Positions 1 through 17,399 of a stretch of DNA of 21,821 bases are shown piece by piece. This DNA comes from a virus, in the IMG/VR virus record IMGVR_UViG_3300045412_000446, positions 1-21,821 of that record. One strand, written 5' to 3'. Numbering within the stretch: position 1 is the first letter of the stretch; each line of letters opens with the position of its first letter. The position numbers and the translations under genes are program-made. The notes under the pieces were generated by a model that made no database searches, was not told the origin of the DNA, and worked only from the letters and a program-made list of their open reading frames with translations.

Positions 1-272
1 ATCGTGTCTTCGGCAATGCCCAGCCATCCCATCAGTGTTTTCATTTTACCAGACAGCTTGCGACCGATCACATAACTGGCTGTGTAGCCACAGTTGAAAC
101 AGTGATAGCTTAGGGTTCCGTCAGCGGAAGTCATCACCCCGCCACGTTTCCTCTTGTCCTGCGACTCACCATTGTACACACAACAGGGCGCATTGAAGCT
201 CAACCATCCCGATGGTGTCTTTTTCCTTACAGACGGCAGCGATGTCAGAATTGTAGACTGAATCAGGTTCAT
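1..272 (-). CDS. DNA primase, gp61-like, N-terminal zinc domain (partial)
   Basis: The gene runs off the left edge, so only about 90 N-terminal residues are visible. They contain a zinc-ribbon-like arrangement: a CC pair in APCCVYNGES near residue 28 and a second pair in YHCFNCGY near residue 59, followed by basic GRKLSGKMKTLMGWLG. This resembles the start of the gp61 primases of T4-like marine phages, which make RNA primers at the fork with the gp41 helicase. The zinc domain reads the template; the catalytic part lies outside the window. The ATG at 272 is chosen because a stop (282-284) lies just upstream in the same frame. It begins 9 nt after the structural gene ends, so the two are probably co-transcribed. 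A different zinc-ribbon phage protein cannot be excluded. Confidence 0.72.
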   Translation of the reverse strand, partial: MNLIQSTILTSLPSVRKKTPSGWLSFNAPCCVYNGESQDKRKRGGVMTSADGTLSYHCFNCGYTASYVIGRKLSGKMKTLMGWLGIAEDT

Positions 273-281
273 TCTTACATT

Positions 282-1082
282 TTAATGTCTATATAGTATT
301 TTGTCAATGCGTCCGGTATTACCACTGTCATTGCTCCAACTGAATCGCACATTTTCGTACACCCCAGTGAAGTTGTAATAGGTGACCGCGGTGGAAGACG
401 AGAATGTTATCGTAGATGACTCGCCCGTGGCAGTGATGTTGAAGTAGTCGGTGTCTGAGGGCGTTGATACCATGGTGCCCTGTATCCTCAGCGATCCCGA
501 AAAAGATTTTGTGTACACGGCGATGGTGTGCAACGCCACGTTGTTGTTGATGCCCGGATTGGCATCTATTGCCCCGCTGGTTTTGTCCAATGGTCCTGTG
601 GTGCTTGTGAAATTGTTGATCTCTATGCTGTCCAGAAAGTCGGGATAGGCGCCATCCAACACTTCTATCGTGCCAGCGGCGTTGTAGAACGAGTCAGCAA
701 AGGTCACTGTTCTCACATTGTCTGCAGCCACTTCTCTTATGGCATAATTGTAAAATTTTGCGTCCAAGGCCAATAAGTCGCCCTCTGTGATTGTTACGCT
801 GGCAGTGCCCTTTGTGCTCACTGTGGAGCCATCATCTAATATTGTAAGATTACGTGTAACAACGCTTTGTTTGGTCTCGGAATCAATCAAATTAAATTCA
901 AAAGTTTTAGAAGTTATATCCTGTGCTTTTTGATCTTCGTTCTTGAACGTGAAAGTAAGCGGATTTGACACACCTTTATACAGTTTTAAACGTCTATCAT
1001 ACACCATGGGATTCCTTCCGTGATAACCAGATGAGTACACTATTACCACGTTGTCTAGTAAATACCTCGATACAGTTTGCAT
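282..1082 (-). CDS. Putative virion structural protein (tail/baseplate, Ig-like N-terminus)
   Basis: A 266-residue protein, rich in Thr, Ser, Asn and beta-strand-like stretches, with no signal peptide or membrane segment. Residues about 30-120 (KLYKGVSNPLTFTFKN, then VTRNLTILDD and KGTASVTITEGDLLAL) resemble the beta-sandwich found at the N-terminus of baseplate upper proteins (BppU-like) and of structural proteins of T4-like marine phages. Residues about 140-266 form a second beta-rich part ending in YYNFTGVYENVRFSWS, suggestive of a carbohydrate-binding jelly roll. A late-promoter-like octamer lies 16 nt upstream of the ATG, which fits late expression of a particle component. No strong ribosome site is seen. 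The exact place in the virion is not known; tail fibre, baseplate or capsid decoration are all possible. Confidence 0.6.
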   Translation of the reverse strand: MQTVSRYLLDNVVIVYSSGYHGRNPMVYDRRLKLYKGVSNPLTFTFKNEDQKAQDITSKTFEFNLIDSETKQSVVTRNLTILDDGSTVSTKGTASVTITEGDLLALDAKFYNYAIREVAADNVRTVTFADSFYNAAGTIEVLDGAYPDFLDSIEINNFTSTTGPLDKTSGAIDANPGINNNVALHTIAVYTKSFSGSLRIQGTMVSTPSDTDYFNITATGESSTITFSSSTAVTYYNFTGVYENVRFSWSNDSGNTGRIDKILYRH

Positions 1083-1098
1083 AATTCATTGCTTACTG

Positions 1099-1106
1099 TA
1101 TTTATT
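1099..1106 (-). promoter_or_regulatory. T4-late-promoter-like octamer AATAAATA
   Basis: On the minus strand the octamer AATAAATA stands 16 nt before the ATG of the structural gene. T4 late promoters need only a TATAAATA-like -10 element read by gp55, and marine relatives accept NATAAATA. The position and the late-type gene behind it support the call. The site also sits in the leader of the divergent gene at 1116. Confidence 0.55.
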
Positions 1107-1115
1107 GTGCAAACT

Positions 1116-1490
1116 ATGAATGAAATTTTTGAAACTCTAAAGACCAAGTTCCCTTTCCTGTCACTGATATGCAAGGGCGATCTGGAATATGTGGGCATCG
1201 TGCAAAACCAGGACAATCAGATAACTTCATTCTATGACTACGGCAGGATCATGTTGCCAGCGGACAAGATGAAATTCCTGCGCTTGGGAGAAACTTGGTG
1301 GTGGGAAAGCAACAGGAAAATACCCATAAACATATTCCTAAAGAAAGATTTCAAATACTTTAGAAGCACCATAGTCACCCTGTCTACTAAAGACATCAAG
1401 ATCGTGCATGGACCGGTAGTTAGATTGGACGAAATATCCAAGAAGAGGATCAAGCGCAGGACCATACAGCTGATGCGTAGGCCCGTTTAG
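1116..1490 (+). CDS. Small conserved-looking phage protein, unknown function
   Basis: A 124-residue soluble protein starting MNEIFETLKTKFPFLSLI. An in-frame ATG at 1077 would add 13 residues but overlaps the start of the divergent structural gene; the 1116 ATG gives a compact protein and is preferred, though neither start has a clear ribosome site. Visible features are an aromatic patch (LGETWWWES, about residues 64-72), a hydrophobic core and a strongly basic tail (KKRIKRRTIQLMRR) that could bind nucleic acid. It is the only rightward gene in the first 7 kb. A T11 run follows its stop and a strong hairpin lies 130 nt downstream. The overall look is that of conserved unknowns of T4-like marine phages. 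No function is assigned. Confidence 0.6.
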   Translation: MNEIFETLKTKFPFLSLICKGDLEYVGIVQNQDNQITSFYDYGRIMLPADKMKFLRLGETWWWESNRKIPINIFLKKDFKYFRSTIVTLSTKDIKIVHGPVVRLDEISKKRIKRRTIQLMRRPV

Positions 1491-1499
1491 TTTTTTTTT

Positions 1500-1622
1500 T
1501 TATTTTACTTTTTCTTTGATTTCTTTTGTTTGCCTGATGTCATCCACGCTCTTGAAAGCCCACGCAATGCCTATAACCAACAACACTAATATCTCAATCA
1601 GTATTAGATCAGGGTTTAGTAT
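1500..1622 (-). CDS. Tiny single-pass membrane protein lacking an ATG start
   Basis: This frame encodes about 40 residues: a short head, one hydrophobic helix (LILIEILVLLVIGIAWAF), then a charged tail (KSVDDIRQTKEIKEKVK) ending at TAA. Such a layout is typical of small phage membrane proteins. No ATG lies in frame; a stop occurs near 1634. Two readings are possible. Either an ATA codon at 1620-1622 is the start, since GAGGA stands 6 nt before it; or translation starts at the ATG at 1633-1635 in another frame, reads eight codons to CCC TGA, and slips +1 into this frame. A one-base assembly error would also explain it. A late-promoter-like octamer lies upstream at 1662-1669. The coordinates given use the ATA start. 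Confidence 0.4.
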   Translation of the reverse strand: MLNPDLILIEILVLLVIGIAWAFKSVDDIRQTKEIKEKVK

Positions 1623-1623
1623 T

Positions 1624-1645
1624 CCAGATCCTCATGAGGATCTGG
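1624..1645 (+). terminator. Perfect 22-bp palindrome followed by T-run; probable terminator
   Basis: Arms CCAGATCCT and AGGATCTGG pair perfectly around a CATG loop. Reading rightward the stem is followed by AT and then GTTTTT, which fits factor-independent termination of the transcript of the gene at 1116-1490, shielding the opposing operon. A second small stem (GGATG / CATCC around TTTTT, 1644-1658) overlaps it. On the minus strand the same hairpin covers the translation start region of the tiny membrane protein, so it may also act in translational control. Confidence 0.6.
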
Positions 1646-1661
1646 ATGTTTTTCATCCATC

Positions 1662-1669
1662 TATTTATT
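1662..1669 (-). promoter_or_regulatory. T4-late-promoter-like octamer AATAAATA (second copy)
   Basis: The same octamer as at 1099-1106 occurs on the minus strand, overlapping the stop codon of the DnaE-like gene (1665-1667) and 27 nt before the ATG in the palindrome loop. It would give late expression of the tiny membrane protein independently of the early operon. The motif is short and A-rich, so chance occurrence is possible; the repeat of exactly the same octamer in front of another gene start raises the odds. Confidence 0.4.
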
Positions 1670-2225
1670 TTTTCCTTAGGAGATTCATCTGCACCACAAT
1701 GGCCTGGGCATATGCCACGGCATGTGATTTCTTGAAAAAGTAACTGTCATCTTTGGGCCGCAACCAAACTTCCTTCAGTATCTCTGACCAATATTTGTGC
1801 ATGAGATTCCTCTTGGCGGGCCTGATTATGGCCAGCACCGCCGCCAGTTGCTCGATGTTCTTGGGTTCCAGTTTAGACACTATGTCAAAATGTCCATTGA
1901 TGTGGAACAGTTGGTCCACGATAGCCTTGTCCTTCAGCATGTCCCAGTCTGGCTCTTCCAGCATCAACTCCACTAGTTGTTGCTCGGTCTCGATGCCTTC
2001 GTAGAGATTCACATTCAATAGATCAATCTTGAAGTATCCACGCTCCTCCGCCCGTTTGTAGTCAAAGCTGCAACAGCCATTGATGGGATCCACGGGCACC
2101 TCTTGGAAGTACACCCCGGTCTTGTGCTTCTCCACCTCATCGTCTTTGATTATGGCCGCGGGCACATGTTGGAACAATTTCAGTGCTTGTTCTCTGTCCG
2201 CGAAATCTATGTCTACGTCAGGCAT
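1665..2225 (-). CDS. Miniature C-family DNA polymerase-like (DnaE/PolIII-alpha-like) protein
   Basis: At 186 residues this is far shorter than DnaE (about 1,100), yet it shows palm and fingers landmarks in the right order. PDVDIDF at residues 2-8 matches the PDxDxDF motif that supplies two catalytic aspartates. FKIDLL near residue 66 matches the KFDFLGL motif with the third. DQLFHINGHFD followed by LEPKNIEQLAAVLAIIRPA (about 104-137) matches the GVFQLE...LKP...L.ALLALYRPGP stretch. KKSHAVAYA near 165 matches NKSHAAAYA. The PHP, clamp-binding, OB and tau-binding parts are all absent. The start overlaps the previous stop (TGATG), so it is the distal gene of the replication operon. Whether it polymerises DNA, binds it, or is a repurposed relic is unknown. 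Confidence 0.6.
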   Translation of the reverse strand: MPDVDIDFADREQALKLFQHVPAAIIKDDEVEKHKTGVYFQEVPVDPINGCCSFDYKRAEERGYFKIDLLNVNLYEGIETEQQLVELMLEEPDWDMLKDKAIVDQLFHINGHFDIVSKLEPKNIEQLAAVLAIIRPAKRNLMHKYWSEILKEVWLRPKDDSYFFKKSHAVAYAQAIVVQMNLLRKK

Positions 2226-2449
2226 CAGTTGTACTTCTTTTTGTTTGCGGCGGCCCTAATCAGTCCACCTTTTTCCTTGTCTATAAACTCCAGCACGTCC
2301 AGAGTCAATTTGTAGCCCTTGCTCACTTGTGACGGCACGTTGACTTCTGGCAAGATCACTTCTCCTATGGAACCATCTTCCTTGATCACTATGATGCAAT
2401 CTCCCGGGTCAATGTCTATGCCCTCTTTTTCTTTGATCGTGCTACTCAA
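2225..2449 (-). CDS. Small phage protein, unknown; TTG start with strong ribosome site
   Basis: The frame remains open up to an ATG at 2488, but a TTG at 2447-2449 is a better start: GGGAGG lies 6 nt before it, whereas the ATG has no such site and would overlap the upstream gene by 47 nt. With TTG the protein has 74 residues and overlaps the preceding stop by 8 nt, like its neighbours. The sequence is acidic in the middle and basic at the end (KGGLIRAAANKKKYN), with beta-strand-like stretches (DPGDCIIVIKEDGSIGEVI) suggesting a small OB- or SH3-like fold. It sits between the zinc-finger gene and the DnaE-like gene, so a part in replication is plausible. No family was recognised. Confidence 0.55.
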   Translation of the reverse strand: MSSTIKEKEGIDIDPGDCIIVIKEDGSIGEVILPEVNVPSQVSKGYKLTLDVLEFIDKEKGGLIRAAANKKKYN

Positions 2450-3128
2450 TTTTGGCCTCCCTGGCTGTCTCCTGCACAAACAAAGCATCGGCCATGTTGG
2501 TCTTAAACCTGTTGGACCAAAATTCTGGATTGATAAATCTCTGTACCATCTGCAGTTGCTCGTCTGAAAATGATTTTAACATCTTCTTGCCCGCGGCACA
2601 ACCAAGCACCAGCCATGGAGATAATTTACCAGTCTGTATGTGTTGCACGGCCCTGGTGGTGTTGACCAAGCGGAAGTAGTCCGCCCACTGCACGTTCTGT
2701 TCTTCCGCCCACTCCATCATGGTCTGTATGCTCCTCTGCAGTGCCCCCTCCACCGGCTCTGTCTTGAGGGTGTCTATGAGATAGGCCTCGTAGAGATCGT
2801 CCCTGGCCCAGTGATCTAATTTTATTCTAGAACGTATCACGTATTCAATATATTTTTCTGGATATAATGGATTGATGTGCATGATGTACCTGCCAAATTT
2901 TACAAAAGCATTGTAGTAGGCGCTCTTGCAAAAATCTTCATAGGTTTTTGGTTTGACATTATTTTGATGTATTTGATAAAATCTTTGAAACACCAATAAA
3001 GCATTCTGCACCCATTTCTCATTTTTTTGCAGATGTCGACGCTTGGGCTCGCACACATGTACCTGTAGAGTTCTTTCTTTAGTAAAACTTTTGCCGCAAA
3101 AAGTACAGGTGTTAAGATTGCTCTCCAT
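2442..3128 (-). CDS. Zinc-finger protein of the replication operon, unknown role
   Basis: A 228-residue protein beginning with a finger-like motif: CTFCGKSF (Cys8, Cys11) followed by LQVHVCEPKRRH (His24 and Cys26 as likely ligands). The spacing resembles a degenerate C2H2 or C2HC finger. The rest is helical and rich in aromatic and charged residues (HINPLYPEKYIEYVIRSR, WAEEQNVQWADYFRLV). The finger and the KRRH segment suggest nucleic-acid or protein binding. It overlaps gp62 by 17 nt and is followed by two short genes in the same operon. T4 itself has no evident equivalent; similar proteins occur, to my recollection, in marine T4-like phages. I assign no biochemical function. Confidence 0.6.
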   Translation of the reverse strand: MESNLNTCTFCGKSFTKERTLQVHVCEPKRRHLQKNEKWVQNALLVFQRFYQIHQNNVKPKTYEDFCKSAYYNAFVKFGRYIMHINPLYPEKYIEYVIRSRIKLDHWARDDLYEAYLIDTLKTEPVEGALQRSIQTMMEWAEEQNVQWADYFRLVNTTRAVQHIQTGKLSPWLVLGCAAGKKMLKSFSDEQLQMVQRFINPEFWSNRFKTNMADALFVQETAREAKIE

Positions 3129-3555
3129 GATCCTCTAGCAGTTGTTCTAGTTCGCTGTCGGTTATAATTTTATCCAGCGTCTCGAGATCCGACATTTTGG
3201 TGTTGGGATAGATATCCATCAACGTCTGCAAAGACTTGTTGGGTATTTTCTTCATGGGCTTTATGTAGGGATGGAACTGTTGTTTCAATCCTCCACACAT
3301 GGCTGTCAACTGCCAGCACAGTTTCTTGTGCTTGCTGCTGAGAGTGAACAAGTGCTTGTTGACGCACTCGTTTATCATCTCCACATAGTGCTCCTGATAG
3401 AATCTTTCTCCAGAAACTGCGGAGGCATATCTCATGGTCATGTAAGGACTGTACAATGATCTCTCATGCTCGTCCACCCGATCGAGATAGTCCTTGTTGC
3501 GGAAGTCTATGGCCTTCATGCTGTTCCTCAATTCAAAAAATTTCTTCTCAGTCAT
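3112..3555 (-). CDS. Probable clamp-loader small subunit (gp62-like)
   Basis: A 147-residue protein that opens with FFELRNSMKAIDFRNKDYLD and continues with SLYSPYMTMRYASAV, EMINECVNKH and KHKKLCWQLTAMCG. This order recalls the gp62 subunits of T4-like marine phages, which pair with gp44 ATPase to load the gp45 clamp for gp43 polymerase. T4 gp62 is 187 residues, so this copy is somewhat short. GGAG lies 5 nt before the ATG, and the start overlaps the previous stop by 8 nt. Neither gp44 nor gp45 is in the window, unlike T4 where they are adjacent, so the assignment rests on remembered family resemblance rather than on context. Confidence 0.55.
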   Translation of the reverse strand: MTEKKFFELRNSMKAIDFRNKDYLDRVDEHERSLYSPYMTMRYASAVSGERFYQEHYVEMINECVNKHLFTLSSKHKKLCWQLTAMCGGLKQQFHPYIKPMKKIPNKSLQTLMDIYPNTKMSDLETLDKIITDSELEQLLEDHGEQS

Positions 3556-3790
3556 CTTCTCTCCATGTCAATGCGAACACAGATGCGTGTTTGGGATTCT
3601 TGAAAGTTATCTCTATGTTCTTGCCTCGCAGTTGATAGCCCTGTATGCTTAATCTTTTCTTCTTGGCATGCTCCATGATCCAATCTATAAAATGTCGATT
3701 CATTAGAACCGGTATCTCCCTGTCATGGTCGTCCGGGACCATGATGACCGGGGCCTCCATGCGAACCACATTTTGTTTTGCCTTTACCAT
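3548..3790 (-). CDS. Small basic phage protein, unknown function
   Basis: An 80-residue protein with a basic N-terminus, an acidic turn (VPDDHDREIPVLM), a helix (HFIDWIMEHAKKKRLS) and a strand-rich end (LRGKNIEITFKNPKHASVFALTWRE). The last part has the look of a small alpha/beta module, possibly nucleic-acid binding. It is embedded in the operon with overlaps on both sides (7 nt with the upstream gene, 8 nt with gp62), which argues that it is real and co-translated. I did not recognise a named family. Confidence 0.55.
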   Translation of the reverse strand: MVKAKQNVVRMEAPVIMVPDDHDREIPVLMNRHFIDWIMEHAKKKRLSIQGYQLRGKNIEITFKNPKHASVFALTWREDD

Positions 3791-4287
3791 ACTGCTCCGT
3801 ATTCCAGGAATTCTGACTGCCTTGATATGTCCTTGACGAAGTATGCGCAGGGTGGATTGTCATCATCAGTTAAGGGTACAGCCAATATCTGTCCTGATTT
3901 GATCTTGGGGAAGTACCATTTGACTTCTTGATATATGTCCACAATGTCCACCTCAGCGAAAGCGGGCTTGGAGTCTGATATGGGATTAAACATGAACGCA
4001 TTGAATCCCCTATCGTTCAAACTGGTCAATGGCAACACATGCAATTCGCCCTGTTCGGGATCTCCTATGATCATCTTCCAATCCAGTGGCATCTTGATTT
4101 TATATTGCCCAATCTGTAGCACCGCTGCCGGAGCGTTGAAGGATTCCAAAAATATCAGTGGTATAAAGAAATAGTCTGGATCTGCAGGATTGGAATTGTC
4201 CAGCACTGCGAATCTCAGTTTGTCGTCCACATATTCTGGTATCTTTTCCAGTATGTAGGTCTTATTTTCTAATGTAAGGATTTTCAT
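3784..4287 (-). CDS. Phage protein of unknown function between uvsW and gp62
   Basis: A 167-residue soluble protein with a conserved-looking core: PLDWKMIIGDPEQGELHVLP, then LNDRGFNAFMFNPI and VYQEVKWYFPKIKSGQILAV, ending CAYFVKDISRQSEFLEYG. I associate this pattern with a conserved unknown of T4-like marine phages that travels with uvsW. It is beta-rich, without membrane segments or recognised catalytic motifs. The start overlaps the end of uvsW by 26 nt, so expression is tied to the helicase. A structural or assembly chaperone for the replication machinery is conceivable, but nothing in the sequence shows it. Confidence 0.6.
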   Translation of the reverse strand: MKILTLENKTYILEKIPEYVDDKLRFAVLDNSNPADPDYFFIPLIFLESFNAPAAVLQIGQYKIKMPLDWKMIIGDPEQGELHVLPLTSLNDRGFNAFMFNPISDSKPAFAEVDIVDIYQEVKWYFPKIKSGQILAVPLTDDDNPPCAYFVKDISRQSEFLEYGAVW

Positions 4288-5731
4288 AATCTATCTTTTC
4301 TATATTATACGGATAATTGGCCTCTTTGTAAAACTTTTTCCTTTGCCCAAGATGTCTCTTGGCGAACTTGCAACTGGAAGTTATATCCCAAATGTTGACG
4401 TGATCTTTGTCTTCTGCTTTCCTGATGCCCCTGCCGATGCTCTGTATCACACGCACAAAGCTCTTGCCAGGCTCTATCAACACCAAGTTAAAGATCCTGG
4501 GTATGTTTATGCCTACGGCAGCCACGCCATAGGTGGCTATTATAACTTTGTGTTGTGCTATGGAAACTTCATCATAGTGTTCTTTTCTTTCAATATTCTT
4601 TGTGGAGCCAGATATGAACACGCTGTCTTTTATTTTCTTTTCTAATAACTCTCCAGCAGATATCCTATCCACTAGAATCATTGTGTTGCCTGTGTTTGAT
4701 ATATCTTCTATGGTTTTTGCAATCCACGACATTCGGGTTTCATCTGTGGTCAACCATTTCAATTCCTCCTGATAATTTTTGAATTCTGGATGATCCTGGG
4801 TTTGTAAAACGTTCACGTTGCATTGTGCCAACACACCTTTGTCTTGTAATTCTTTAGCTACTATCTTATTGGCCACGTCGCCTATGCTGCATCGCAATCC
4901 ATAAAATTCATAGTCGGCTTTTGGCACTGTGCCCGTGAGTCCCCAACGTATTCCACATCGAGCAAACGGTCCTGTTAACATTCTTTTTAACACATCTGCT
5001 TTCGCCATGTGCACCTCGTCCACTATCACAGTATTGATGTTCTCTATGGCTTCCAAGAATGCTGTGGTCTCATCGTCTCTGCTTTTCTTTTCCAACACAT
5101 TTAATGATTGCCAAGTGGCGATGGTGTTCTGTCGTCCTAATTCTTTTCTGTCACCATAGTACACTCCAACATCTAGATTACATGCCAAGAAATCATCTTC
5201 TGTCTGTGTGACCAAACTCTTATTGGGTACAATAGTTAAAGTTCGTCCATAATTTTCAACCAGCCGGCACAATGCTGCTGTGATGATGGTCTTACCTGCT
5301 CCTGTGGCAATCTCTTGAATACACTGAGGATTCTCCAGGAACTTGTTTATGGTTTCCACTTGATAGTCTCGCAACACTATAGATTGTCCGGCACAGGGAT
5401 GATTCTTTGGCCACTTGGTATCAGCTAGATAGTTTTGATCTATCAGTTTAAATTCAAAGTTGTGTGGAGTTCTCTGATCTTCCAATTCCACATACACCCC
5501 AGCATCTTCCAGAATGGGCAATATCTCTCCCACCAACGCCAGATAGGTGTTGCCACCCAATCCAAAGAAACTGACCTTGCCATCCCATCTGCCCAGTTTT
5601 ACTGCTGGTAGATGTCGAGCATAAGGTATTTCAAATTTAAATTTGTTGCTGAGATGTTTCCTGTGATCTAGAGAAAGGTTCTCAAATTTGACGTTTACCT
5701 CGTCTCGAATTACCAGTTTGCATGAACTCAT
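4262..5731 (-). CDS. uvsW: UvsW-like DEAH-box branch-migration helicase
   Basis: A 489-residue superfamily 2 helicase. The order of parts matches T4 UvsW: an N-terminal DNA-binding region with LGRWDGKVSFFGLGG (about 46-60), RDYQ (121-124), Walker A ATGAGKT (142-148), the box DEVH (238-241), LTGT (265-268), then a second RecA-like domain ending in motif VI, QSIGRGIR (430-437). UvsW unwinds R-loops and branched DNA, remodels stalled forks and shuts down origin-type replication in favour of recombination-dependent replication. Its length is close to T4 UvsW (about 500). The ATG overlaps the stop of the HARP-like gene as ATGA, so the two are translated together. In T4, uvsW is expressed late; here it is in the operon of an early-looking promoter. 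Confidence 0.92.
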   Translation of the reverse strand: MSSCKLVIRDEVNVKFENLSLDHRKHLSNKFKFEIPYARHLPAVKLGRWDGKVSFFGLGGNTYLALVGEILPILEDAGVYVELEDQRTPHNFEFKLIDQNYLADTKWPKNHPCAGQSIVLRDYQVETINKFLENPQCIQEIATGAGKTIITAALCRLVENYGRTLTIVPNKSLVTQTEDDFLACNLDVGVYYGDRKELGRQNTIATWQSLNVLEKKSRDDETTAFLEAIENINTVIVDEVHMAKADVLKRMLTGPFARCGIRWGLTGTVPKADYEFYGLRCSIGDVANKIVAKELQDKGVLAQCNVNVLQTQDHPEFKNYQEELKWLTTDETRMSWIAKTIEDISNTGNTMILVDRISAGELLEKKIKDSVFISGSTKNIERKEHYDEVSIAQHKVIIATYGVAAVGINIPRIFNLVLIEPGKSFVRVIQSIGRGIRKAEDKDHVNIWDITSSCKFAKRHLGQRKKFYKEANYPYNIEKIDYENPYIRK

Positions 5732-7062
5732 ACGGATTGTATCTTGTCAGATGGTTTCTGACTCATATAATACAATCTTTTCGGCAAACTTTCAACCAGC
5801 TTGTCCAGGGTGTTGGTACTCATGGCCCACATAGGGGTATCTTGCAACATGAATGCTATCTTGGGTTTGATCCCAGATCGCAGCAGAGTCCTTGGTATTT
5901 TGTTTCTAACGAATATGATTTTGGTCTGCGGGGAGATCTTTCTATTGCTGACGCTCAACGCATGCAGAATTTTCCATTGGTCATATATTCGCTCACGCTC
6001 CATAATGGGGGTATCCGCACCATAGACGAAGTCTGGGGATGGAAACTGCTCCACCTCAGTATTGGGATCCGCGGACATTGGTTGGTTGAGTTCAAAACCA
6101 AATGCGATGCTGTCTTTTGTTATGCCCGCCGCTTCAAATTCTCCCAGCCATTCATAAACTGACGTGATTTCATCTTTTATTCCCAGATCCCCGCTGAATG
6201 GACAGATCGTGGGCAGGTCTCCCAATTCTATGATTGCTTGTAACAAAGTTTTCCTGTCATAGACTTTCCTGTCCACGAACAAATCAGTGTTGGATGCATG
6301 GGCTATCTTTTCCGCTAGTGTTCGTGCAGGCGCAGAATTATTTCTTACAGAAGAAATGCAGAGTTGTTTCAATTGGTCTCTCTGTTGAAGATATGACAGC
6401 GATTGACAATTTTTTAGCCAATATTCTGCAAGTGAGTCGGAAGCATTGATTAATCTTATTGAATCGTTATCTACATCAGCGATGACAGGCAGATATTTCT
6501 TCTTCTGTTGTTTGATCTCTTCGTAGTCATTTAAAATTTTTATTTTTAGTATCTTGAAATCATATCTCACCGCTATCAGTGTCACATAGTAGGCCACCGT
6601 ATCGGTATAATTCATGGTCCATTTTTTTGTCTCTCCGTCATACAGCATTGGAACCAACTCCTGTGTTTTCTTTTTAAGGCATCTTATCAATGCAATAAAT
6701 TTTTCGTTATAAGGAAATCTCATTTCTAGAACTTCTCTACCATCTTGTGCTGTAAAGACATCTACGCTCTTTTCGAAACTTATGACTCTAAAGGGTTGGT
6801 CATAGCGGGGATTGTTTATCAGATTGTCCACATCAAAATCAAATTTTTCCAACAACGTTTTGTATCTCTTCAAGAACATCATGGCCAGTTTGCCCTGCTT
6901 CTCCGTCCATGCATAGGTAGCGGCAGCCAAGCTCTGTATGATCTTGAAATCTTTGTCATGCATCCCGGAATTTTGCCAAGATCCGCCGGTATTATAGGCC
7001 AATATCCTCAGAGCGGCCTCCATTGATTCCAACCTGCGATGTGGTATGTTTGTGTTTGTCAT
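5728..7062 (-). CDS. HARP-domain-like protein coupled to UvsW
   Basis: A 444-residue protein with no Walker A or other ATPase motif. Residues about 113-160 (MRFPYNEKFIALIRCLKK, then MLYDGETKKWTMNYTD) resemble the HARP module of SMARCAL1-type annealing helicases, where a YxxELI helix is followed by a Y-D-x-x-x-R-K-W turn. The C-terminal part (SPQTKIIFVRNKIPRTLL, IKPKIAFMLQDTP) looks like an alpha/beta domain of unknown type. An open frame continues to a GTG at 7089, but that codon lies upstream of the expected transcription start, so ATG 7062 is chosen. It is the first gene after the promoter and overlaps uvsW as ATGA. A role as DNA-structure-binding partner of UvsW is my inference; the HARP match is by eye. 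Confidence 0.55.
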   Translation of the reverse strand: MTNTNIPHRRLESMEAALRILAYNTGGSWQNSGMHDKDFKIIQSLAAATYAWTEKQGKLAMMFLKRYKTLLEKFDFDVDNLINNPRYDQPFRVISFEKSVDVFTAQDGREVLEMRFPYNEKFIALIRCLKKKTQELVPMLYDGETKKWTMNYTDTVAYYVTLIAVRYDFKILKIKILNDYEEIKQQKKKYLPVIADVDNDSIRLINASDSLAEYWLKNCQSLSYLQQRDQLKQLCISSVRNNSAPARTLAEKIAHASNTDLFVDRKVYDRKTLLQAIIELGDLPTICPFSGDLGIKDEITSVYEWLGEFEAAGITKDSIAFGFELNQPMSADPNTEVEQFPSPDFVYGADTPIMERERIYDQWKILHALSVSNRKISPQTKIIFVRNKIPRTLLRSGIKPKIAFMLQDTPMWAMSTNTLDKLVESLPKRLYYMSQKPSDKIQSV

Positions 7063-7077
7063 TTTTTGGATAATTAC

Positions 7078-7105
7078 AGTATAGCACACAAGACAAAAAA
7101 GTCAA
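7078..7105 (-). promoter_or_regulatory. Sigma70-like early promoter for the uvsW operon
   Basis: On the minus strand TTGACT (7100-7105) and TATACT (7078-7083) are separated by 16 nt, close to the consensus TTGACA-17-TATAAT. Transcription would begin about position 7071, only some 9 nt before the ATG at 7062, so the leader is very short. It is the only strong promoter seen between 7122 and the left end for the leftward replication genes, and presumably is read by unmodified host RNA polymerase. Confidence 0.68.
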
Positions 7106-7121
7106 TTGTGTTACCACTTTT

Positions 7122-7526
7122 ATGAGAAGAAAAAAAGCACTCAAATTAAGGCATAAGATAGTGAGAGAAACCCTTGTACATAAGGGACCTTATGAAACCA
7201 ACAGGCGGGCTATAGATCTCTGGTTTCGCTACATCAATCGAGCAGTGTTCAACAATGAGTTGCCAAATTTCAATAAGATCATAATCAAGAAATGGCTGAA
7301 ACAGGCCATGGGGCAGGTGTGCGCCTATCCAGATAGAAATCCTAAAAGATTTGAACTGGAGATGCTGCGCAAGTACAACACCAAGAAAGATTTTATAGAA
7401 ACATTGGCACACGAGATGATACACCTATATCAATTTGCATTAAAGAAGGACACGGGCAATCACAACAGGATCTTCTACAGCTTCCGGCCAAGGTTTAAAT
7501 TTATTGGCCTAGGACTTTCTCTTTAA
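7122..7526 (+). CDS. SprT-like zinc metallopeptidase
   Basis: A 134-residue protein with the core of the SprT/Spartan family: LAHEMIHLYQ at about 95-104 gives the HExxH zinc site (His97, Glu98, His101), and His114 in NHNRIF is the likely third ligand. The upstream segment IDLWFRYINRAVFNNELPNF matches the helix before the family's beta-sheet. Eukaryotic Spartan clears DNA-protein crosslinks at forks, while SprT itself is poorly understood; the phage copy lies beside replication genes, which fits a DNA-linked substrate. It is rightward, divergent from the uvsW operon and convergent (26-nt overlap) with the glycan cassette. The N-terminus is basic (MRRKKALKLRHK). The usual C-terminal zinc ribbon is missing. 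Confidence 0.82.
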   Translation: MRRKKALKLRHKIVRETLVHKGPYETNRRAIDLWFRYINRAVFNNELPNFNKIIIKKWLKQAMGQVCAYPDRNPKRFELEMLRKYNTKKDFIETLAHEMIHLYQFALKKDTGNHNRIFYSFRPRFKFIGLGLSL

Positions 7527-8244
7527 ACACATTATAGGTCATCAACAACGTATTCTTTAGATTGGTCCCAGTCTGCAGGTGATTTAGATACTCTGGTGGG
7601 TTGTCGTGCACCACTGTGAAGCGGCAGTAGGGCCTCTGTTTTATCAAGGTTCTGAACTGTTTCAGCCATGCCTCAAATATGCTGTCATCGTTTCTTTCTC
7701 CATAGCACGGCGTATCCTGGTAGATGTTGTTCAGTTGTCCCTTGCCATATTGCCTGAAGTCAAAGCCTATGAGATAGATATTTTTATGTCCATGCACGCA
7801 GGCGGTCCACATGGCGGCCTGCCCAGAAACCCAATGCGGATTATTGGGTATGAGGTTTAGTTTGCCAGCGTACCTGTTGACCTCCAGCGAAGGAGCGTAG
7901 CATACGCATTTTTCATACACTCGGCCATCCACTATGACCTTGCTTATCTTGGAGTCGACCATGAAAAGGTAATCTGGCATGAAGTCTCTGTAGAGTGCGT
8001 TGCAGCCATACACCTGCCCTGTGGGCCTCAAAATATTAAGATCAAATCCCTGCCTGGAAGGACCGTTGCCTATTATGTAGGCATTGCCTCGGGGCACTGC
8101 CTTGACCCGGTCCTCATAGAATGCTGTCTCCAATATCTTCTGACCTTTCCTTATCACCGTGCGGACCGTGACGGTTTCACCGCTGTAGGGCTGCCATTCT
8201 ATGGGCTGGATCTCCTCATGCCTGTGTGTCCTGACTGTCTTCAT
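7501..8244 (-). CDS. DUF115/Maf-like protein of the glycan cassette
   Basis: With the start at ATG 8244 (overlapping the preceding stop as ATGA) the protein has 247 residues; a longer frame to 8349 would overlap its neighbour by over 100 nt and is rejected. The core AYIIGNGPSRQGFDLN, then VYGCNALYRDFMPDYLFMVD, and later HWVSGQAAMWTACVHGHKNI with YLIGFDFR, match the DUF115 / 6-hydroxymethylpterin pyrophosphokinase-like fold. Maf proteins of this superfamily transfer nonulosonic acids such as pseudaminic acid to flagellin; others act in lipid-glycan assembly. It is the last gene of the leftward block. Substrate and reaction are not determined here. A transferase working on a nonulosonic acid is one option, in keeping with the Kdo-transferase-like neighbours. 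Confidence 0.65.
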   Translation of the reverse strand: MKTVRTHRHEEIQPIEWQPYSGETVTVRTVIRKGQKILETAFYEDRVKAVPRGNAYIIGNGPSRQGFDLNILRPTGQVYGCNALYRDFMPDYLFMVDSKISKVIVDGRVYEKCVCYAPSLEVNRYAGKLNLIPNNPHWVSGQAAMWTACVHGHKNIYLIGFDFRQYGKGQLNNIYQDTPCYGERNDDSIFEAWLKQFRTLIKQRPYCRFTVVHDNPPEYLNHLQTGTNLKNTLLMTYNVFKEKVLGQ

Positions 8245-9116
8245 TTTATGCTGTATTTTTCCTCCAACCTTGTCCTTATCCTCATCCATGGAGTGCCGTT
8301 CCTGATCTCCTGTGTGGTCCATTCGGTGTAAGCCAATCGATTGGCCCAATTCAATCTGGCTGGCATGGCTGGTTTTTCTATGTCTCTCAGCTCCTCGTTT
8401 CCAACTTCATAACTGAGGCTGGATGGTGACACAAATACCGGCACGCCATTGATCACCGATTCCATTCCAATGTTGCTGGAATGATTGACCACTGCCCAGG
8501 CGTCATTGAGCACTTCCTTGAAATCGGTGTCGTCGTATGTGTTGGGGTCGGGAGCAGGCGCCCTAAATTTAACATTTTCAAATTTTTCTTCACTGAGCTC
8601 AAAGTAACTCCTGGGATGTGGTCTCACAATGATCTGTCTCTTGGTGTATTTCCTAATCTCCTTGATCTTTTGTTCCGCCCATTGTGCTGCCGTTGGCATC
8701 CCTTGCCATTGCAGGCTTTCTGTGTTCTGGCAACACAATAAGATATATTTGCCCTGGGATCTCCAGGGTTTCATCTCTATGTCAAACAATGGCCAACGCT
8801 TGTCATTATATTGTTGATTGGCGAAGTCCGCGTCCCTGTTGGTGCCATTGATGGCCATCTTCCATGTGTGCTCGCGTTTGATGCCACCCACTTCCAATAC
8901 CACTACCGGTCGATTGGTCGACCTAAAGCTGTCCCATACTTGTTTGTTGGCGGCCATCCTGCCCTTCCATAGCACCGACCATATGATGGCCACGTCGCAG
9001 TTGCGGTCCTCGTTGAGATGGAATTTCTCTCCCTCGTCTCTAAAGCAGTCCAGCAGTGCCTTAAAAACAGGGCGTGAGTTTATGCTGCCATTGTTTTCGA
9101 ATACCGCTATCCTCAT
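8241..9116 (-). CDS. KpsC/KpsS-like capsule glycosyltransferase, paralog A
   Basis: A 291-residue protein with start ATG 9116 (ATGA overlap with the GT-A gene). The N-terminal half (MRIAVFENNG, DVAIIWSVLW) looks like a Rossmann domain; the C-terminal half has IIVRPHPRSYFE, then AWAVVNHSSNIGMESVINGV with PVF, and ends with LAYTEWTTQEIRNGTPW. The RPHP motif and the AVV..SS...E....GvPVF loop are the donor-binding signature of the GT-B capsule polysaccharide superfamily (KpsC, KpsS, CDP-glycerol transferases). It shares its C-terminal pattern with three other genes here. It probably transfers a sugar or sugar-phosphate from a nucleotide donor in the cytoplasm. Donor and acceptor are unknown. Confidence 0.68.
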   Translation of the reverse strand: MRIAVFENNGSINSRPVFKALLDCFRDEGEKFHLNEDRNCDVAIIWSVLWKGRMAANKQVWDSFRSTNRPVVVLEVGGIKREHTWKMAINGTNRDADFANQQYNDKRWPLFDIEMKPWRSQGKYILLCCQNTESLQWQGMPTAAQWAEQKIKEIRKYTKRQIIVRPHPRSYFELSEEKFENVKFRAPAPDPNTYDDTDFKEVLNDAWAVVNHSSNIGMESVINGVPVFVSPSSLSYEVGNEELRDIEKPAMPARLNWANRLAYTEWTTQEIRNGTPWMRIRTRLEEKYSIK

Positions 9117-10021
9117 TTCAATGCTCCTGGCACTTTCTTCCAATAGTCCAACTCCAACACATTGGCCGGGGCATCCTTCATGGGAGGTCTCAGATCTGCT
9201 CTAGCACTGCTGCCCAATTTTTTTCTTTTGCCTTTCATGTGGTCCATGTATAAACCCAATTCGCTGTTGATGAACACATGATGTCCTTTGACGTTCTTGC
9301 CATAGCCAATATCATTTACCTGTATGTTATACTTCTCTTGAAATTTCCTGGCCAGATGCCAGAAAATAAAACTGTCGTGCCACTCTAGCAACTTGAACAC
9401 CTCATCTGTGATGTATAATTTTTCCCATTCTGTAACAAATTCTTGGGTGTTAGGATGTTGTAAATTATACCCTACAAATCCACACTCGGGATATTTGCCA
9501 CCATCTTTCAATGCATATCTTTCTCGGCCCAGGAAAGTCAGCATGGTATCTCGGGGTAAAAGAGTCTCAAGGAAATTCAATGGTATGGATCTAAATGTAA
9601 AAGTATCAGCATCAACCCACAGCACATAGTCATAGTTGGCGGAATTTCTCACAGCGTTGATAACGCAAAAAACTTTATTGCTGAATCTCACGGCATCCCA
9701 AAGGAACGATCCCTTATTTTTATCCAATCCACCATGTTGTTGCAGAGCAGCAGGTCTTCTAACTCCCCCCGGTATCTCTTGTAACTCTCCGCATGCCACA
9801 GGATCGTTCCGATGTTGATTTTTAAATTTCAACAACTCGGGTTCAGCCGAGTTTAGATCAATCCATGTGATTCTAGGATGATCGTAGTTGGGTTTTGGTT
9901 CCTCAAGATACACCACAAGATCGATTTCTTTCGGCCATTGTTCGGCAATGCTCTTGATACCTCTACCGGAATAGAGATCCCATGTGCCTGGTTTGTATGA
10001 GGTTATAACTTTGATTTTCAT
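9113..10021 (-). CDS. GT-A fold glycosyltransferase
   Basis: A 302-residue protein opening MKIKVITSYKPGTW, with a DxD-type metal and nucleotide-sugar motif in DYVLWVDADTF (Asp137, Asp139) and a later LGLYMDHMKGKRKK that could supply the histidine ligand. GRERYALKDGGKYPECGFVG resembles the acceptor-side loop of retaining GT-A transferases of the GT8 kind. No membrane helix is visible, so it is likely cytoplasmic. It starts 7 nt after asparagine synthetase ends and overlaps paralog A as ATGA. An insertion-like stretch at about residues 78-105 (IPGGVRRPAALQQHGG) is of low complexity compared with the rest. Sugar specificity is unknown. Confidence 0.7.
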   Translation of the reverse strand: MKIKVITSYKPGTWDLYSGRGIKSIAEQWPKEIDLVVYLEEPKPNYDHPRITWIDLNSAEPELLKFKNQHRNDPVACGELQEIPGGVRRPAALQQHGGLDKNKGSFLWDAVRFSNKVFCVINAVRNSANYDYVLWVDADTFTFRSIPLNFLETLLPRDTMLTFLGRERYALKDGGKYPECGFVGYNLQHPNTQEFVTEWEKLYITDEVFKLLEWHDSFIFWHLARKFQEKYNIQVNDIGYGKNVKGHHVFINSELGLYMDHMKGKRKKLGSSARADLRPPMKDAPANVLELDYWKKVPGALK

Positions 10022-10028
10022 ATTCTAT

Positions 10029-11747
10029 TTAATACGTCATTTGATATTTTTTAATCCAGTCTTTCATTATCCAAGCCGGAACCAGAGCTTTACTGGCTTT
10101 TTGGCTTACCGTAATTTTATCTAGTTTTGATTTGTCTCCCATATTATTTGTATAGAAGTTTTTTAAATTTTTATCAGTGCCCATGGCCAGCCATTGCCCA
10201 ATTGGCACAGTCCATCCAGTTTTTTGTTTTGTGATTATGGCGTCCGGCAATATGCCTTTGTAGGCTATCTTGGTCAATAATTTGGTATCAGATTTATTTT
10301 TTCCTATCTTATAGCTTGTGGGAATGTCCAGGCAGTACTGCATGAACATCTTTGTGGTCAGAGGAAATCTCCCCTCCATGCCAAACGACATGCCATATTT
10401 GTCGTTCCTGGCAAAGAATTCGTTTGGAGCCTGCGCAACACAATCGATAGCCATGTAAGACGCCACAGGATCTGCAGGATTCCATAGAGTGTCGGGATAT
10501 AATTTTATTAGTTCTTCTCTCAATACCGGAGTTGGCAGAGTTGGCACTCCTACCACTAGTGGTCGTTTTATTCTTTGTAACCATTTGTCTATTACGCTGC
10601 TCCATGAATTAAATTTTTCATCTTTCATTTTCCAATACTTAGGATATCCGCCCAGTATCTCGTCGCCCATGTCTCCCGCCATGGTTATGACGGTGCCTGC
10701 CTCGGATAATTTTCTATTGGTATGGTAGTACATGCTCATGCTGGGATTGTATACTGGCTGCTCCATGTAATAGATGCTGTCATTCCATGCCGCAATCACG
10801 TCATTGGGAGTGATGATGATTTCTCTGTGATTGAATTTTTCTTGATCCGCTAATATTTTAGCACAGGTGGCATCACTGTTGTAATCTTCATCTGTTACTA
10901 CATTGGGTTTCATTTTATTAGTAAATGTATTCACTGAGCCGTGTATCTTCATCATCTCGTATGCCACCACGCTGCTGTCTAATCCGCCGCTGAGGAACAC
11001 TCCCATCTGTCTTCTTCCTATGCTGCACATCTGCACAGTCTTTCTAACTCGATCTCTGAACTCCGCGGGATCAAAGGAAGAATTGGATCTAGGAGTTATG
11101 AAAATTCTTTCTGATAATTTTATTCTTTTATTTGCACAGTCATATGTGATTGTTTCTCCCGGCATCAGTTGTTTTATGTTGGAAAAAAATGTGTTTCTGG
11201 TGGCATTAATACCTGTGAGGCTCATGCAACTTATTGCCAACTGATCTATCTTCCTGGAGTTGGGCACTAGATCCAGCATGCCCTTTATCTCAGAACCAAA
11301 TATCAATCCTTCAACGGTCTCGGCATAGTATAGAGGTTTGATGCCAGCGTGATCTCTACTCAATATCAGTTGTCTCGTGTGCGTGTCGTAATAGGCAAAG
11401 GCATGCATGCTATCGATCTGTTCAACAAATTTTGCGCCATATTGGTCCAGACCCCATGCCAATAGTTCTGTGTCGCATGTGGTGCGGGGTTGGAATGCCG
11501 TGTTTTTTTTTATCAGATCAAAATAGTTAAAGATCTCTCCATTGTAGATCAATATGTTACCCCTTTCCGTTCGCCATGGCTGCTGTGACGCAGTGGGCTG
11601 ATCTGTGATGCTCAAAAGATTGTGTCCCAGTGTAACCGAATCATCGTTCCACACACCATTGCCGTCTGGTCCCCTATGGTGGCACTTCTCCATGTACTTT
11701 TTGATAAACTCTACATCTTTAGTTGTGATGCCATATACGCCGCACAT
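10029..11747 (-). CDS. Glutamine-dependent asparagine synthetase (AsnB family)
   Basis: A 572-residue, apparently intact enzyme. The N-terminal glutaminase has Cys2 as nucleophile (MCGVYGI), HRGPDG (24-29) and NGEIFNY (69-75). The synthetase domain has the PPi-loop SGGLDSS (253-259), then TMAGDMGDEILGGY and GRFPL typical of AsnB. AsnB makes asparagine from aspartate, glutamine and ATP, but relatives in polysaccharide loci amidate uronic acids or other carboxylates (as in WbpS/Alb-type genes). The position among transferases and the sulfotransferase favours glycan amidation over amino-acid supply; this is inference. GGAAGG lies 7 nt before the ATG inside the end of the sulfotransferase gene, with a 29-nt overlap. 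Confidence 0.88.
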   Translation of the reverse strand: MCGVYGITTKDVEFIKKYMEKCHHRGPDGNGVWNDDSVTLGHNLLSITDQPTASQQPWRTERGNILIYNGEIFNYFDLIKKNTAFQPRTTCDTELLAWGLDQYGAKFVEQIDSMHAFAYYDTHTRQLILSRDHAGIKPLYYAETVEGLIFGSEIKGMLDLVPNSRKIDQLAISCMSLTGINATRNTFFSNIKQLMPGETITYDCANKRIKLSERIFITPRSNSSFDPAEFRDRVRKTVQMCSIGRRQMGVFLSGGLDSSVVAYEMMKIHGSVNTFTNKMKPNVVTDEDYNSDATCAKILADQEKFNHREIIITPNDVIAAWNDSIYYMEQPVYNPSMSMYYHTNRKLSEAGTVITMAGDMGDEILGGYPKYWKMKDEKFNSWSSVIDKWLQRIKRPLVVGVPTLPTPVLREELIKLYPDTLWNPADPVASYMAIDCVAQAPNEFFARNDKYGMSFGMEGRFPLTTKMFMQYCLDIPTSYKIGKNKSDTKLLTKIAYKGILPDAIITKQKTGWTVPIGQWLAMGTDKNLKNFYTNNMGDKSKLDKITVSQKASKALVPAWIMKDWIKKYQMTY

Positions 11748-12375
11748 TGAAATCCCTTCCGTTGTGTTTTATTGCTGACCAGATGCGATCGTCTATCGTC
11801 CAGTCAAATTTCCAAACTGCTCTGAAAAATTTGTATACGTTTTCGTTGAGTTCCACTTGCGATGGAGGAGTTACATTGATCAGCTCGCGGTTCCATGGCA
11901 GGCCAAATTTGTTCTCAATCTTTTCAAACCAATTGGGACCATCGATGGCCACCAGTCTCACGGCAACTTGATCCGTGTCAAAATAATAATGCTGTGGTCT
12001 CAGAGCTCCTCCTTGTTCATTTCTTGGTCTATCCTGCGTAACAACGAGATCTGCCAGGTACGCCAGCACTCCTGGTTCATCTTTTTGATTTTTTGGTATA
12101 GACCTCGACTGCAGGTTATAACGTATTATACTATCATAACGTTCTCTGGGTGATCTAAAAGTTGTGAACCAAAACCAATCCTTGTATTCCTCTGCCGCAT
12201 ATTTCTGTCGTAGTTCTAATCCTATGATCTGATTGGCAGACAGGTGAGGGGTGTTTTTTAAACATCCACGGTTGACCTCGTTAGGGGCTATGCTTTCCAG
12301 ATATTTTGTCACGGTATGACCAGCGGTCTTTGGCACATGTATGTAAACAACTTTTAATTTACTTGAGATGTACAT
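11719..12375 (-). CDS. Sulfotransferase family protein (PAPS-dependent)
   Basis: A 218-residue protein with the two PAPS-binding signatures: VYIHVPKTAGHTV (10-22; Lys16 and Thr17 in the 5'-phosphosulfate loop) and WFTTFRSPRERYDSI (about 69-83), whose Arg74 and Ser75 match the 3'-phosphate loop. Such enzymes move sulfate from PAPS to a hydroxyl or amino group of a carbohydrate. Bacterial homologues of the sulfotransfer_2 type often occur in capsule and O-antigen loci. The length is at the short end for the family, but both loops are complete. It lies between paralog B and asparagine synthetase. A possible source of PAPS is the APS-kinase-like fusion at 20258-21037. Confidence 0.78.
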   Translation of the reverse strand: MYISSKLKVVYIHVPKTAGHTVTKYLESIAPNEVNRGCLKNTPHLSANQIIGLELRQKYAAEEYKDWFWFTTFRSPRERYDSIIRYNLQSRSIPKNQKDEPGVLAYLADLVVTQDRPRNEQGGALRPQHYYFDTDQVAVRLVAIDGPNWFEKIENKFGLPWNRELINVTPPSQVELNENVYKFFRAVWKFDWTIDDRIWSAIKHNGRDFNVRRIWHHN

Positions 12376-12381
12376 AAAAAA

Positions 12382-13365
12382 TTATAATTTCAATTTCAAT
12401 TTGAATCTACGGAACACCGTGCCATTTTTTATCTCTTCAGTGGTCCACATCTTGTATCCCAGATCATTCAACCATTGTGTCCTGTCAGGCATTTCCGGTG
12501 ATTCTATCTTGGTCAGATCTTTGTTACATACCGGCCAGCATATAGCTAGATCGGAAGTGCAGAAAGTGGGTATACCTCTCACGCAACTGTCTGTGCTGGC
12601 TGTTGAATTGTGTGTGACCACGGCATGGCAATCGGCAATCGCTTCTTGAAAATTAAATCTATAGTATTTTTTATTGTCTCCGGAGAAAAATTTGGGCCCT
12701 ATCACTAGCTCGACGTCATTGGGAAATTCTTTTGCCCTGTCTGCTATCGCTGCCATATGATTAGGATGTGGCCTCACTAAAAATTTCTTAGCAGTCAATG
12801 GTCTCAGTGTTTTATAAACTCCATTGAACCAATCAACGGGATCTAGCTCGTTCATGCTCCAGTTATCTTTGGGTTGTAGTACAAACAGTATTGGATCTTG
12901 TGAATTGGATTTCCTCCATGGTTCATTCTTGATGTTCCACAGCTTCTTCATCATTTCCCAACGATCTGGCGGAGAGTTGTCTGACAAAAAATTTCCATTG
13001 TTCATGGGGGAATATAGAGCCACCCTCCAGTGATGACGGGGATGATCCACTGTGTTTCCAAAACTGCTAAGCAGACCCCCGTCGAATGTGATGATGTATA
13101 TGCCTTTCTTCTTGGCACGTTCCACAAGGTCTCTCCTCCTGCCCTTGGTATGATGCATCTGCTTGTCCCCACCATAGCCAAACATGCAGCCGATAGGTGC
13201 GGTGGGTTCCATCTCGTCCTTGCGCCACTCTCCGGTCAGGTGCTCGTTCACTATTATGGCATTGTCTCCGCAGGCCTTTATGCCCTGGGCCATGTGGTGC
13301 AGCAGTTCCCAGCTGCCACCCCTTCGCCTGTCCTTGACCGTTCTCCTAAAGATCTCAACGTCCAT
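12382..13365 (-). CDS. KpsC/KpsS-like capsule glycosyltransferase, paralog B
   Basis: A 327-residue protein. The start is ATG 13365 because GGAGG stands 7 nt before it inside the end of paralog C; a frame to 13419 would add 18 residues without such a site. Its N-terminal half is longer than in the other copies (CMFGYGGDKQMHH, IYIITFDGGLLSSFGN). The C-terminal half has FLVRPHPNHMAA, ADCHAVVTHNSTASTDSCV then GIPTF, LTKIESPEMPDRTQW and MWTTEEIKNGT, matching the other copies motif for motif. RPHP is intact, so it may be catalytically similar to paralog A. Donor and acceptor are unknown. Confidence 0.68.
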   Translation of the reverse strand: MDVEIFRRTVKDRRRGGSWELLHHMAQGIKACGDNAIIVNEHLTGEWRKDEMEPTAPIGCMFGYGGDKQMHHTKGRRRDLVERAKKKGIYIITFDGGLLSSFGNTVDHPRHHWRVALYSPMNNGNFLSDNSPPDRWEMMKKLWNIKNEPWRKSNSQDPILFVLQPKDNWSMNELDPVDWFNGVYKTLRPLTAKKFLVRPHPNHMAAIADRAKEFPNDVELVIGPKFFSGDNKKYYRFNFQEAIADCHAVVTHNSTASTDSCVRGIPTFCTSDLAICWPVCNKDLTKIESPEMPDRTQWLNDLGYKMWTTEEIKNGTVFRRFKLKLKL

Positions 13366-14170
13366 CCAATATCCTCCATGCCCATCCGTCCTGCATCTCT
13401 TCTCTTGTGAACTGTCCATACGCTAATGAATGATAGCAGGGTTCTCTGTCCGCATATCGGGGTGTTTCTATTTTTGCGAAATCTGTTTCTGCTATGGGAG
13501 CGCATGAGTTCATTGTGTCTGTGAACACAGGCACACCCCTTGCTGTGGATTCTATGGTTACGTTGCTGTTGAATGTCACAATGGCATGTGTGTCGTTCCA
13601 ATTGATTGGTGTGGTGTTGTCCTCATTATCGTCTGGCCCTGGCATCAGTCTCCCTAGTTCATCTATTTTGCTGTCTGGATTATATCCTTTGTTTCTCACA
13701 ACTATTTCTCTATCTGTGTTTGCCCGTAGAATTTCTAAAGTTTTGGACAGCCAGTCTTCCTGTTCGAACATGACCGCCATGCTGTGCGTGGGAGGACACA
13801 CCACAATTTTACGACCGCCCCTCTTCCATGGTTCTATGTTAAAAGGAAAGGATTTTTTAAAACGATCATTGGATCTAGATTCTAAATAATTTTTTACATG
13901 ACCGTTTTTGGTTATTCTCATTAAGTAAGGACTGCCTCGACTCTCTCCCCAGTAAGGACGATCCATGAAATAGAAATCGATCTTGTTTTTTTGTGCCCAA
14001 TGATAAACCATGTTGGTGCCTCTCAATATGCCCATTAGCACAACTTTTTTGGCATCTCTCTGTTGTATCACTTGATCATATGGTAAAATTTTTGATCCTG
14101 GTAAACCTTGTTGGCACCAGTCTATGTATTTCTCTGTGGCAGGTCGGCCAGTTTTACTAAGATATATCAT
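13355..14170 (-). CDS. KpsC/KpsS-like capsule glycosyltransferase, paralog C (altered RPHP)
   Basis: A 271-residue protein starting MIYLSKTGRPATEKYIDW. It keeps the family's C-terminal pattern (THAIVTFNSNVTIESTARG, GVPVF, FAKIETPRYADREP, LAYGQFTREEMQDGWAW), but where A and B have RPHP it reads VVRNKGYNPDS. The conserved His is thus missing, suggesting changed chemistry or a non-catalytic partner. It overlaps paralog B by 11 nt and begins 21 nt after the GT61-like gene. On the minus strand TACAAT (14182-14187) stands 11 nt before the ATG, but with no convincing -35 box. The codon use is more AT-rich than in paralog A. Confidence 0.62.
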   Translation of the reverse strand: MIYLSKTGRPATEKYIDWCQQGLPGSKILPYDQVIQQRDAKKVVLMGILRGTNMVYHWAQKNKIDFYFMDRPYWGESRGSPYLMRITKNGHVKNYLESRSNDRFKKSFPFNIEPWKRGGRKIVVCPPTHSMAVMFEQEDWLSKTLEILRANTDREIVVRNKGYNPDSKIDELGRLMPGPDDNEDNTTPINWNDTHAIVTFNSNVTIESTARGVPVFTDTMNSCAPIAETDFAKIETPRYADREPCYHSLAYGQFTREEMQDGWAWRILDGR

Positions 14171-14191
14171 TTGTATTAATTATTGTATTTT

Positions 14192-15268: not shown

Positions 15269-15281
15269 TGTATTCTTAATA

Positions 15282-15309
15282 ATTATACTATAAACTATTA
15301 CAATGTCCA
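15282..15309 (-). promoter_or_regulatory. Sigma70-like promoter for the leftward glycan block
   Basis: On the minus strand TGGACA (15304-15309) and a perfect TATAAT (15282-15287) are 16 nt apart. The start point would be near 15275, about 7 nt before the ATG at 15268. The -35 box lies in the first codons of the divergent SGNH-like gene. On the plus strand TATACT (15284-15289) overlaps the same -10 and stands 13 nt before the ATG at 15303, though its -35 is poor; the two directions may exclude each other. Confidence 0.6.
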
Positions 15310-17393: not shown

Positions 17394-17399
17394 TATATC

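Follow-up and report, generated by a model that had tools for sequence, protein, structure and literature searches.

A 186-residue protein encoded in the 21,821-nucleotide stretch of viral DNA analysed here (IMG/VR record IMGVR_UViG_3300045412_000446; below, the window) is probably the C-terminal subunit of a split, minimal C-family DNA polymerase: an enzyme whose two halves, each a separate protein, would rebuild one active site. Support for this reading comes from homology, fold, invariant residues, purifying selection, the complementary boundaries of the two halves, their co-occurrence in relatives and the replication neighbourhood of the gene; from these we infer that the partner is present in this virus, that the halves associate, that the pair is catalytic and what its role might be. 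Judged by its sequence, the window protein (the C-half) is a further environmental member of a split polymerase already predicted in 2021 (Iyer et al. 2021, PMC7824862).

PDVDIDF opens the chain, just as the family phrog_11778 begins at the DxDxD motif, and FKIDLL, IRPAK and KSHAVAYA follow in the order of DnaE (Table 1). An earlier note, made from the letters of this DNA alone, had taken PDVDIDF and FKIDLL for the motifs that hold the catalytic aspartates and had seen an RPxP-type and a KSHAxAYA stretch following in the right order; both observations hold, the former stretch being IRPAK. It was also right that the other domains of DnaE are missing: there are no PHP, clamp- or tau-binding or OB parts, and all 186 residues match positions 400–778 of the alpha subunit. 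Absent too is the GRGS (hG[GS]) nucleotide-binding turn. The description of the protein as a minimal C-family core is thus accurate for the palm and fingers, with all catalytic aspartates, but not for the GRGS half of the palm, which is a separate protein in relatives.

Table 1. Features of the window, with positions counted from its first letter.
Feature	Position	Strand	Remarks
C-half: putative Mg- and template-binding C-terminal half of a split minimal C-family DNA polymerase	1665..2225	-	186 aa; phrog_11778
PDVDIDF metal-ligand motif, residues 2–8	2202..2222	-	D3, D5 and D7 invariant; equivalent to E. coli alpha D401/D403 region
FKIDLL, residues 65–70	2016..2033	-	K66 and third catalytic aspartate D68, both invariant
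IRPAK fingers motif, residues 134–138	1812..1826	-	R135, P136 and K138 invariant
KSHAVAYA fingers motif, residues 166–173	1707..1730	-	H168 invariant
ORF upstream of C-half, no assigned function	2225..2488	-	87 aa; stop overlaps C-half ATG (TGATG)
C2H2-type zinc-finger-like protein	2442..3128	-	phrog_11058; conserved neighbour
Candidate gp62-like clamp-loader small subunit	3112..3555	-	phrog_11758
UvsW-like DNA helicase	4262..5731	-	neighbour named in earlier note; confirmed
Convergent small gene	1077..1490	+	phrog_11637; at same place in RaK2
Virion structural protein-like	282..1082	-	phrog_14467; at same place in RaK2
Start of gp61-type (DnaG-like) primase, cut by window edge	1..272	-	MNLIQSTILTS...; complete in contig L034

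Among PHROGs the window protein falls, well beyond chance, in phrog_11778, ‘DNA polymerase’ (E 3.5e-66); it also matches further phage Pol III alpha profiles: the full-length phrog_405 (E 1e-6) and phrog_12219 (E 3.5e-4). The Pfam finger domain is matched below threshold (E 0.013). A phmmer search of the PDB with the single window sequence returned zero matches and profile matches were weak (best E 0.033); the assignment therefore rests on PHROGs, the motifs, the fold and conservation.

The AlphaFold model of the C-half, built on a 66-sequence alignment, has a mean pLDDT of 91.9, and every one of its best 16 Foldseek matches is to Pol III alpha or PolC. VIA-align places residues 1–186 on E. 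coli alpha 400–778, Taq 461–835, M. tuberculosis 419–805 and PolC 971–1293, with Z between 6.4 and 9.6 for Pol III alpha and PolC as against 3.1 for the top unrelated row. The comparison of folds that the earlier note had proposed thus ends in a strong match to Pol III alpha and PolC alone. Over the matched range 379 residues of E. coli alpha shrink to 186: some 190 are deleted internally, and the fingers are cut down to about half.

Relatives of the C-half were found by tblastn in 63 phage records, each with at least 80% query coverage and less than 60% identity; a second, divergent query likewise gave 63 phage records. Most of these are jumbo phages of 280–490 kb (Phosso, Atu_ph07, PA5oct, RaK2, 121Q, CBB, XacN1, SCTP-2 and others), while two carriers are 141-kb Alishewanella phages. 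The nearest cultured phage is Phosso, whose C-half is 56% identical to that of the window. Within IMG/VR, relatives of the window protein are encoded in 425 stretches, and a profile query finds C-half relatives in at least 598.

Among 133 distinct viral sequences twelve residues never vary: D3, D5, D7, H34, G37, K66, D68, R135, P136, K138, K165 and H168. The three aspartates, on whose conservation the earlier note had placed weight, are thus constant among viral homologues. The motifs DxDxD, KxDxL, IRPxK and HxxG are intact in all 133, the full KxHxxxYA-type motif in 128; a set of 13 divergent sequences (12 from annotated phages) likewise shows no variation in the metal ligands, K-x-D, IRPxK or the histidine. 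Between the window C-half and its close relatives pN is 0.04–0.16 and pS 0.72–1.1; because pN is far below pS, the C-half is under strong purifying selection.

The turn that the window chain lacks is carried by a second protein in relatives. Searched with the full profile for Pol III alpha, each of 13 jumbo-phage records yielded a second small frame, at profile positions 322–437, which lie upstream of those that the C-half matches; beyond these two frames the 13 records gave no convincing DnaE part. (A phrog_405 match in a 459-aa frame of Phosso was discarded: by eye the frame resembles cysteinyl-tRNA synthetase.) This second protein, the N-half, corresponds to phrog_11127, is ∼170 aa long and matches PF07733 above its cut-off. 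Its jumbo-phage translations contain G-x-GRGS and end in an ...EF(L/F)-type tail. In 78 environmental copies GRGSS is constant, and in 72 of the 78 (where the motif was located) the chain ends 29 residues past GRGS.

Of particular interest is the fit between the two proteins. The N-half profile aligns to E. coli alpha 322–392, and residues 82–179 of the N-half model (pLDDT 91.2) superpose on alpha 279–395 with Z of about 10–12. On E. coli alpha the N-half thus stops at 395 and the C-half starts at 400, so that no more than about four residues lie between them; the same short gap is seen in M. tuberculosis (415/419), Taq (457/461) and PolC (966–967/970–971). The N-half ends where the C-half begins, and a single active site is divided between two proteins, one with the hG[GS] turn and the other with the metal ligands. 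The genes themselves are far apart, the N-half and C-half lying at 97.5 kb and 321.5 kb in Phosso and at 187.8 and 144.1 kb in PA5oct. In three environmental contigs the N-half is within about 1–3 kb of gp44. A small gene and one for a GroES-like co-chaperonin come after it in nearly all contigs examined (L137–L216, L400:17758–18617). An origin by split intein was rejected, the lengths of the halves leaving no room for intein blocks; the intein split reported for phage MIJ3 affects its B-family polymerase.

The two halves tend to be found together. Comparison of accessions, covering all but PP728206, OR228459 and OQ508957, shows the N-half in at least 60 of the 63 C-half phage records, and the C-half is also present in 11 of 30 long environmental contigs that carry the N-half. 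Two long contigs, G032 (543 kb, L138) and G037 (359 kb, L154), have an N-half and no C-half detectable by tblastn or profile, being either incomplete or cases of real loss. A B-family polymerase is encoded in 13 of 13 jumbo-phage records; a search of 13 jumbo phages for an A-family polymerase gave one sub-threshold match only. One 328-kb contig (G041) holds both halves together with a B-family polymerase, its C-half being 57% identical to that of the window. To the earlier note a C-family core was puzzling in T4-type phages; its presence there beside a B-family polymerase had already been described for a whole group of jumbo phages (Iyer et al. 2021, PMC7824862).

As the earlier note had said, the C-half belongs to an operon together with replication and recombination genes of T4 type. 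Between UvsW and the beginning of gp61 the window keeps the gene order of RaK2-like phages: UvsX – (UvsY) – DnaQ-type exonuclease – UvsW – ... – small gene – C-half – phrog_11637 – phrog_14467 – gp61 – gp41. Of the two neighbours named in the earlier note, uvsW is confirmed, whereas gp62 is plausible on indirect grounds: the Slicko01 homologue of the candidate adjoins gp44 and matches phrog_225 ‘clamp loader’ (E 3e-4). In Slicko01, gp44 and the gp62-like gene lie ahead of the C-half. The place of the ORF directly upstream of the C-half is taken in many relatives by a small gene, annotated in RaK2-like phages as a virion structural protein.

Two further parts of the window were judged by eye. 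A small protein with a HEMIH motif (7122–7526, plus strand) looks like an SprT-like metalloprotease and is convergent with an adjacent glycan-type gene. A large block of what appear to be surface-glycan or sugar genes spans 7501–21037 and includes asparagine-synthase-like (10029–11747), FkbM-type methyltransferase-like (16668–17393) and NDP-sugar epimerase-like (17400–18401) genes, together with several similar proteins of about 270–345 aa.

Contigs with close C-halves encode a further C-family protein ∼5 kb downstream, past gp61 and gp41: a PHP-less, single-chain DnaE of about 565 aa (hereafter compact DnaE) with TRGSAGS, LPDVDIDF, LKVDIL and fingers (PF07733, E 1.4e-42; PF17657, E 7e-15). 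Copies lie at L034:10963–12558 and L218:1519–3210, and there are 60 IMG/VR loci in all. Contig L001 is 99.98% identical to positions 1–8225 of the window and extends 2.98 kb beyond its left edge; its final 75 bases (11129–11203) match the start of compact DnaE, with 92% identity over 25 codons. Because this near-identical contig ends in the start of that gene, it is very probable that the virus of the window has a compact DnaE, starting ∼2.9 kb past the window edge. Like the C-half, compact DnaE (L218:1519–3210) has a C-family palm and fingers and is linked to gp61/gp41; unlike it, it carries the GRGS-type turn and the aspartates on one chain, and it is a gene separate from the window ORF. Not every relative has it here: the 121.8-kb contig G001 (L059), whose C-half is 74% identical to that of the window, is without it; nor were a B-family polymerase or an N-half found in that contig.

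No B-family polymerase (PF00136) was found in 30 plus 32 environmental fragments of related contigs, all of them partial, G001 included. Nor was the N-half found in the fragments of the window's lineage, which are short; this absence carries no inference, because the GroES-like neighbour of the N-half is also missing from them. An attempt to link the N-half to the lineage through shared neighbours and longer contigs failed, the contigs being too short, and no single contig has N-half, C-half and compact DnaE all together. Compact DnaE and the N-half do occur together in two related contigs (G061 and G104), and in LR756508 (484 kb), which is more distant, a compact DnaE with 37% identity is accompanied by a B-family enzyme but by no C-half. 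It is possible, though we suggest this tentatively, that in the window's lineage a T4-type primosome/recombination module relies on C-family enzymes alone, with compact DnaE replacing gp43 as replicase and the split Pol III core acting as a second polymerase.

In the split enzyme the C-half would supply the metal ligands (DxD and the third aspartate) and a shortened fingers/template-binding part, and the ∼170-aa N-half, encoded elsewhere in related genomes, would contribute the GRGS turn together with the beginning of the palm. The two most likely associate, restoring one polymerase active site. Such a rebuilt core would most likely serve primer extension or gap-filling in recombination-dependent replication and repair, producing only short pieces of DNA; alternatively, it may extend primers before the main replicase takes over. 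That replicase would be the B-family enzyme in jumbo phages and possibly the linked compact DnaE in the window's lineage.

Against the split-polymerase reading are the distance between the two genes, which are not co-translated, the reduction of the fingers to about half, the failure to find the N-half in the short contigs of the window's lineage and the long contigs with the N-half only (G032 and G037). The C-half might instead be a non-catalytic accessory: a polymerase-like palm/fingers domain with no synthesis of its own, whose role would be to bind DNA or to regulate compact DnaE or the B-family polymerase. The missing GRGS turn, the presence of other polymerases and the failure to find the N-half in the lineage's short contigs would all fit; yet metal ligands, K-x-D, IRPxK and KSH that stay constant in 133 sequences are needless for a non-catalytic role, and we consider this account unlikely.

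C-family palms have the Pol beta-type nucleotidyltransferase fold, which, with fingers so much shortened, would allow the pair to act on another substrate, for example as a template-independent or RNA-modifying enzyme. The Pol III alpha fingers motifs are nevertheless retained and the neighbourhood is one of replication and recombination, which makes such an activity quite improbable. Small size and missing domains could also mark a decaying, functionless remnant of a lost DnaE, and the earlier note had indeed entertained a ‘residual’ core. This is contradicted by the substitution pattern (pN ∼0.04 as against pS 0.72–1.0 to close relatives), by invariant active-site residues and by a length and motifs kept across hundreds of phages; pN being so far below pS, we reject it with near certainty. 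The split polymerase thus remains our preferred reading.

If this reading is right, a replicative-type active site has been divided over proteins of ∼170–190 aa, with the nucleotide-binding turn on one side of the cut and the metal ligands on the other; these would rank among the smallest C-family polymerases in nature and offer a model of the origin or reduction of such enzymes. With its precise boundary, its invariant residues and the co-occurrence of its halves, the split enzyme can be tested directly; no experimental test was found in the open-licence papers searched. The linked compact DnaE of the window's lineage, which is apparently new and for which we found no earlier description, raises the question of which enzyme copies these phages.

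Parts of this system have been seen before. The authors of the CBB genome had noted a truncated alpha subunit (PMC5259590), those of Atu_ph07 reported a predicted alpha subunit (PMC6102473), and PF07733 is present in roughly half of a marine jumbo-phage cluster (PMC9123017). In group 2.2 jumbo phages, split minimal Pol III alpha was described computationally by Iyer et al. (2021, PMC7824862), who independently drew the same inference of a split enzyme and suggest that the split form is ancestral.

Compared with bacterial Pol III alpha (DnaE, PolC), the C-half has the palm/fingers fold and catalytic motifs in common over E. coli 400–778, but is without the PHP, thumb, clamp, tau and OB parts and without the GRGS half in its chain. 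With the enzyme of Iyer et al. (C-half phrog_11778, N-half phrog_11127) it agrees in family, size, motifs and synteny (UvsW ... C-half ... gp61, gp41). It differs from that group in belonging to an uncultured virus, in whose partial contigs the N-half and a B-family polymerase were not found, and whose lineage has a linked compact DnaE.
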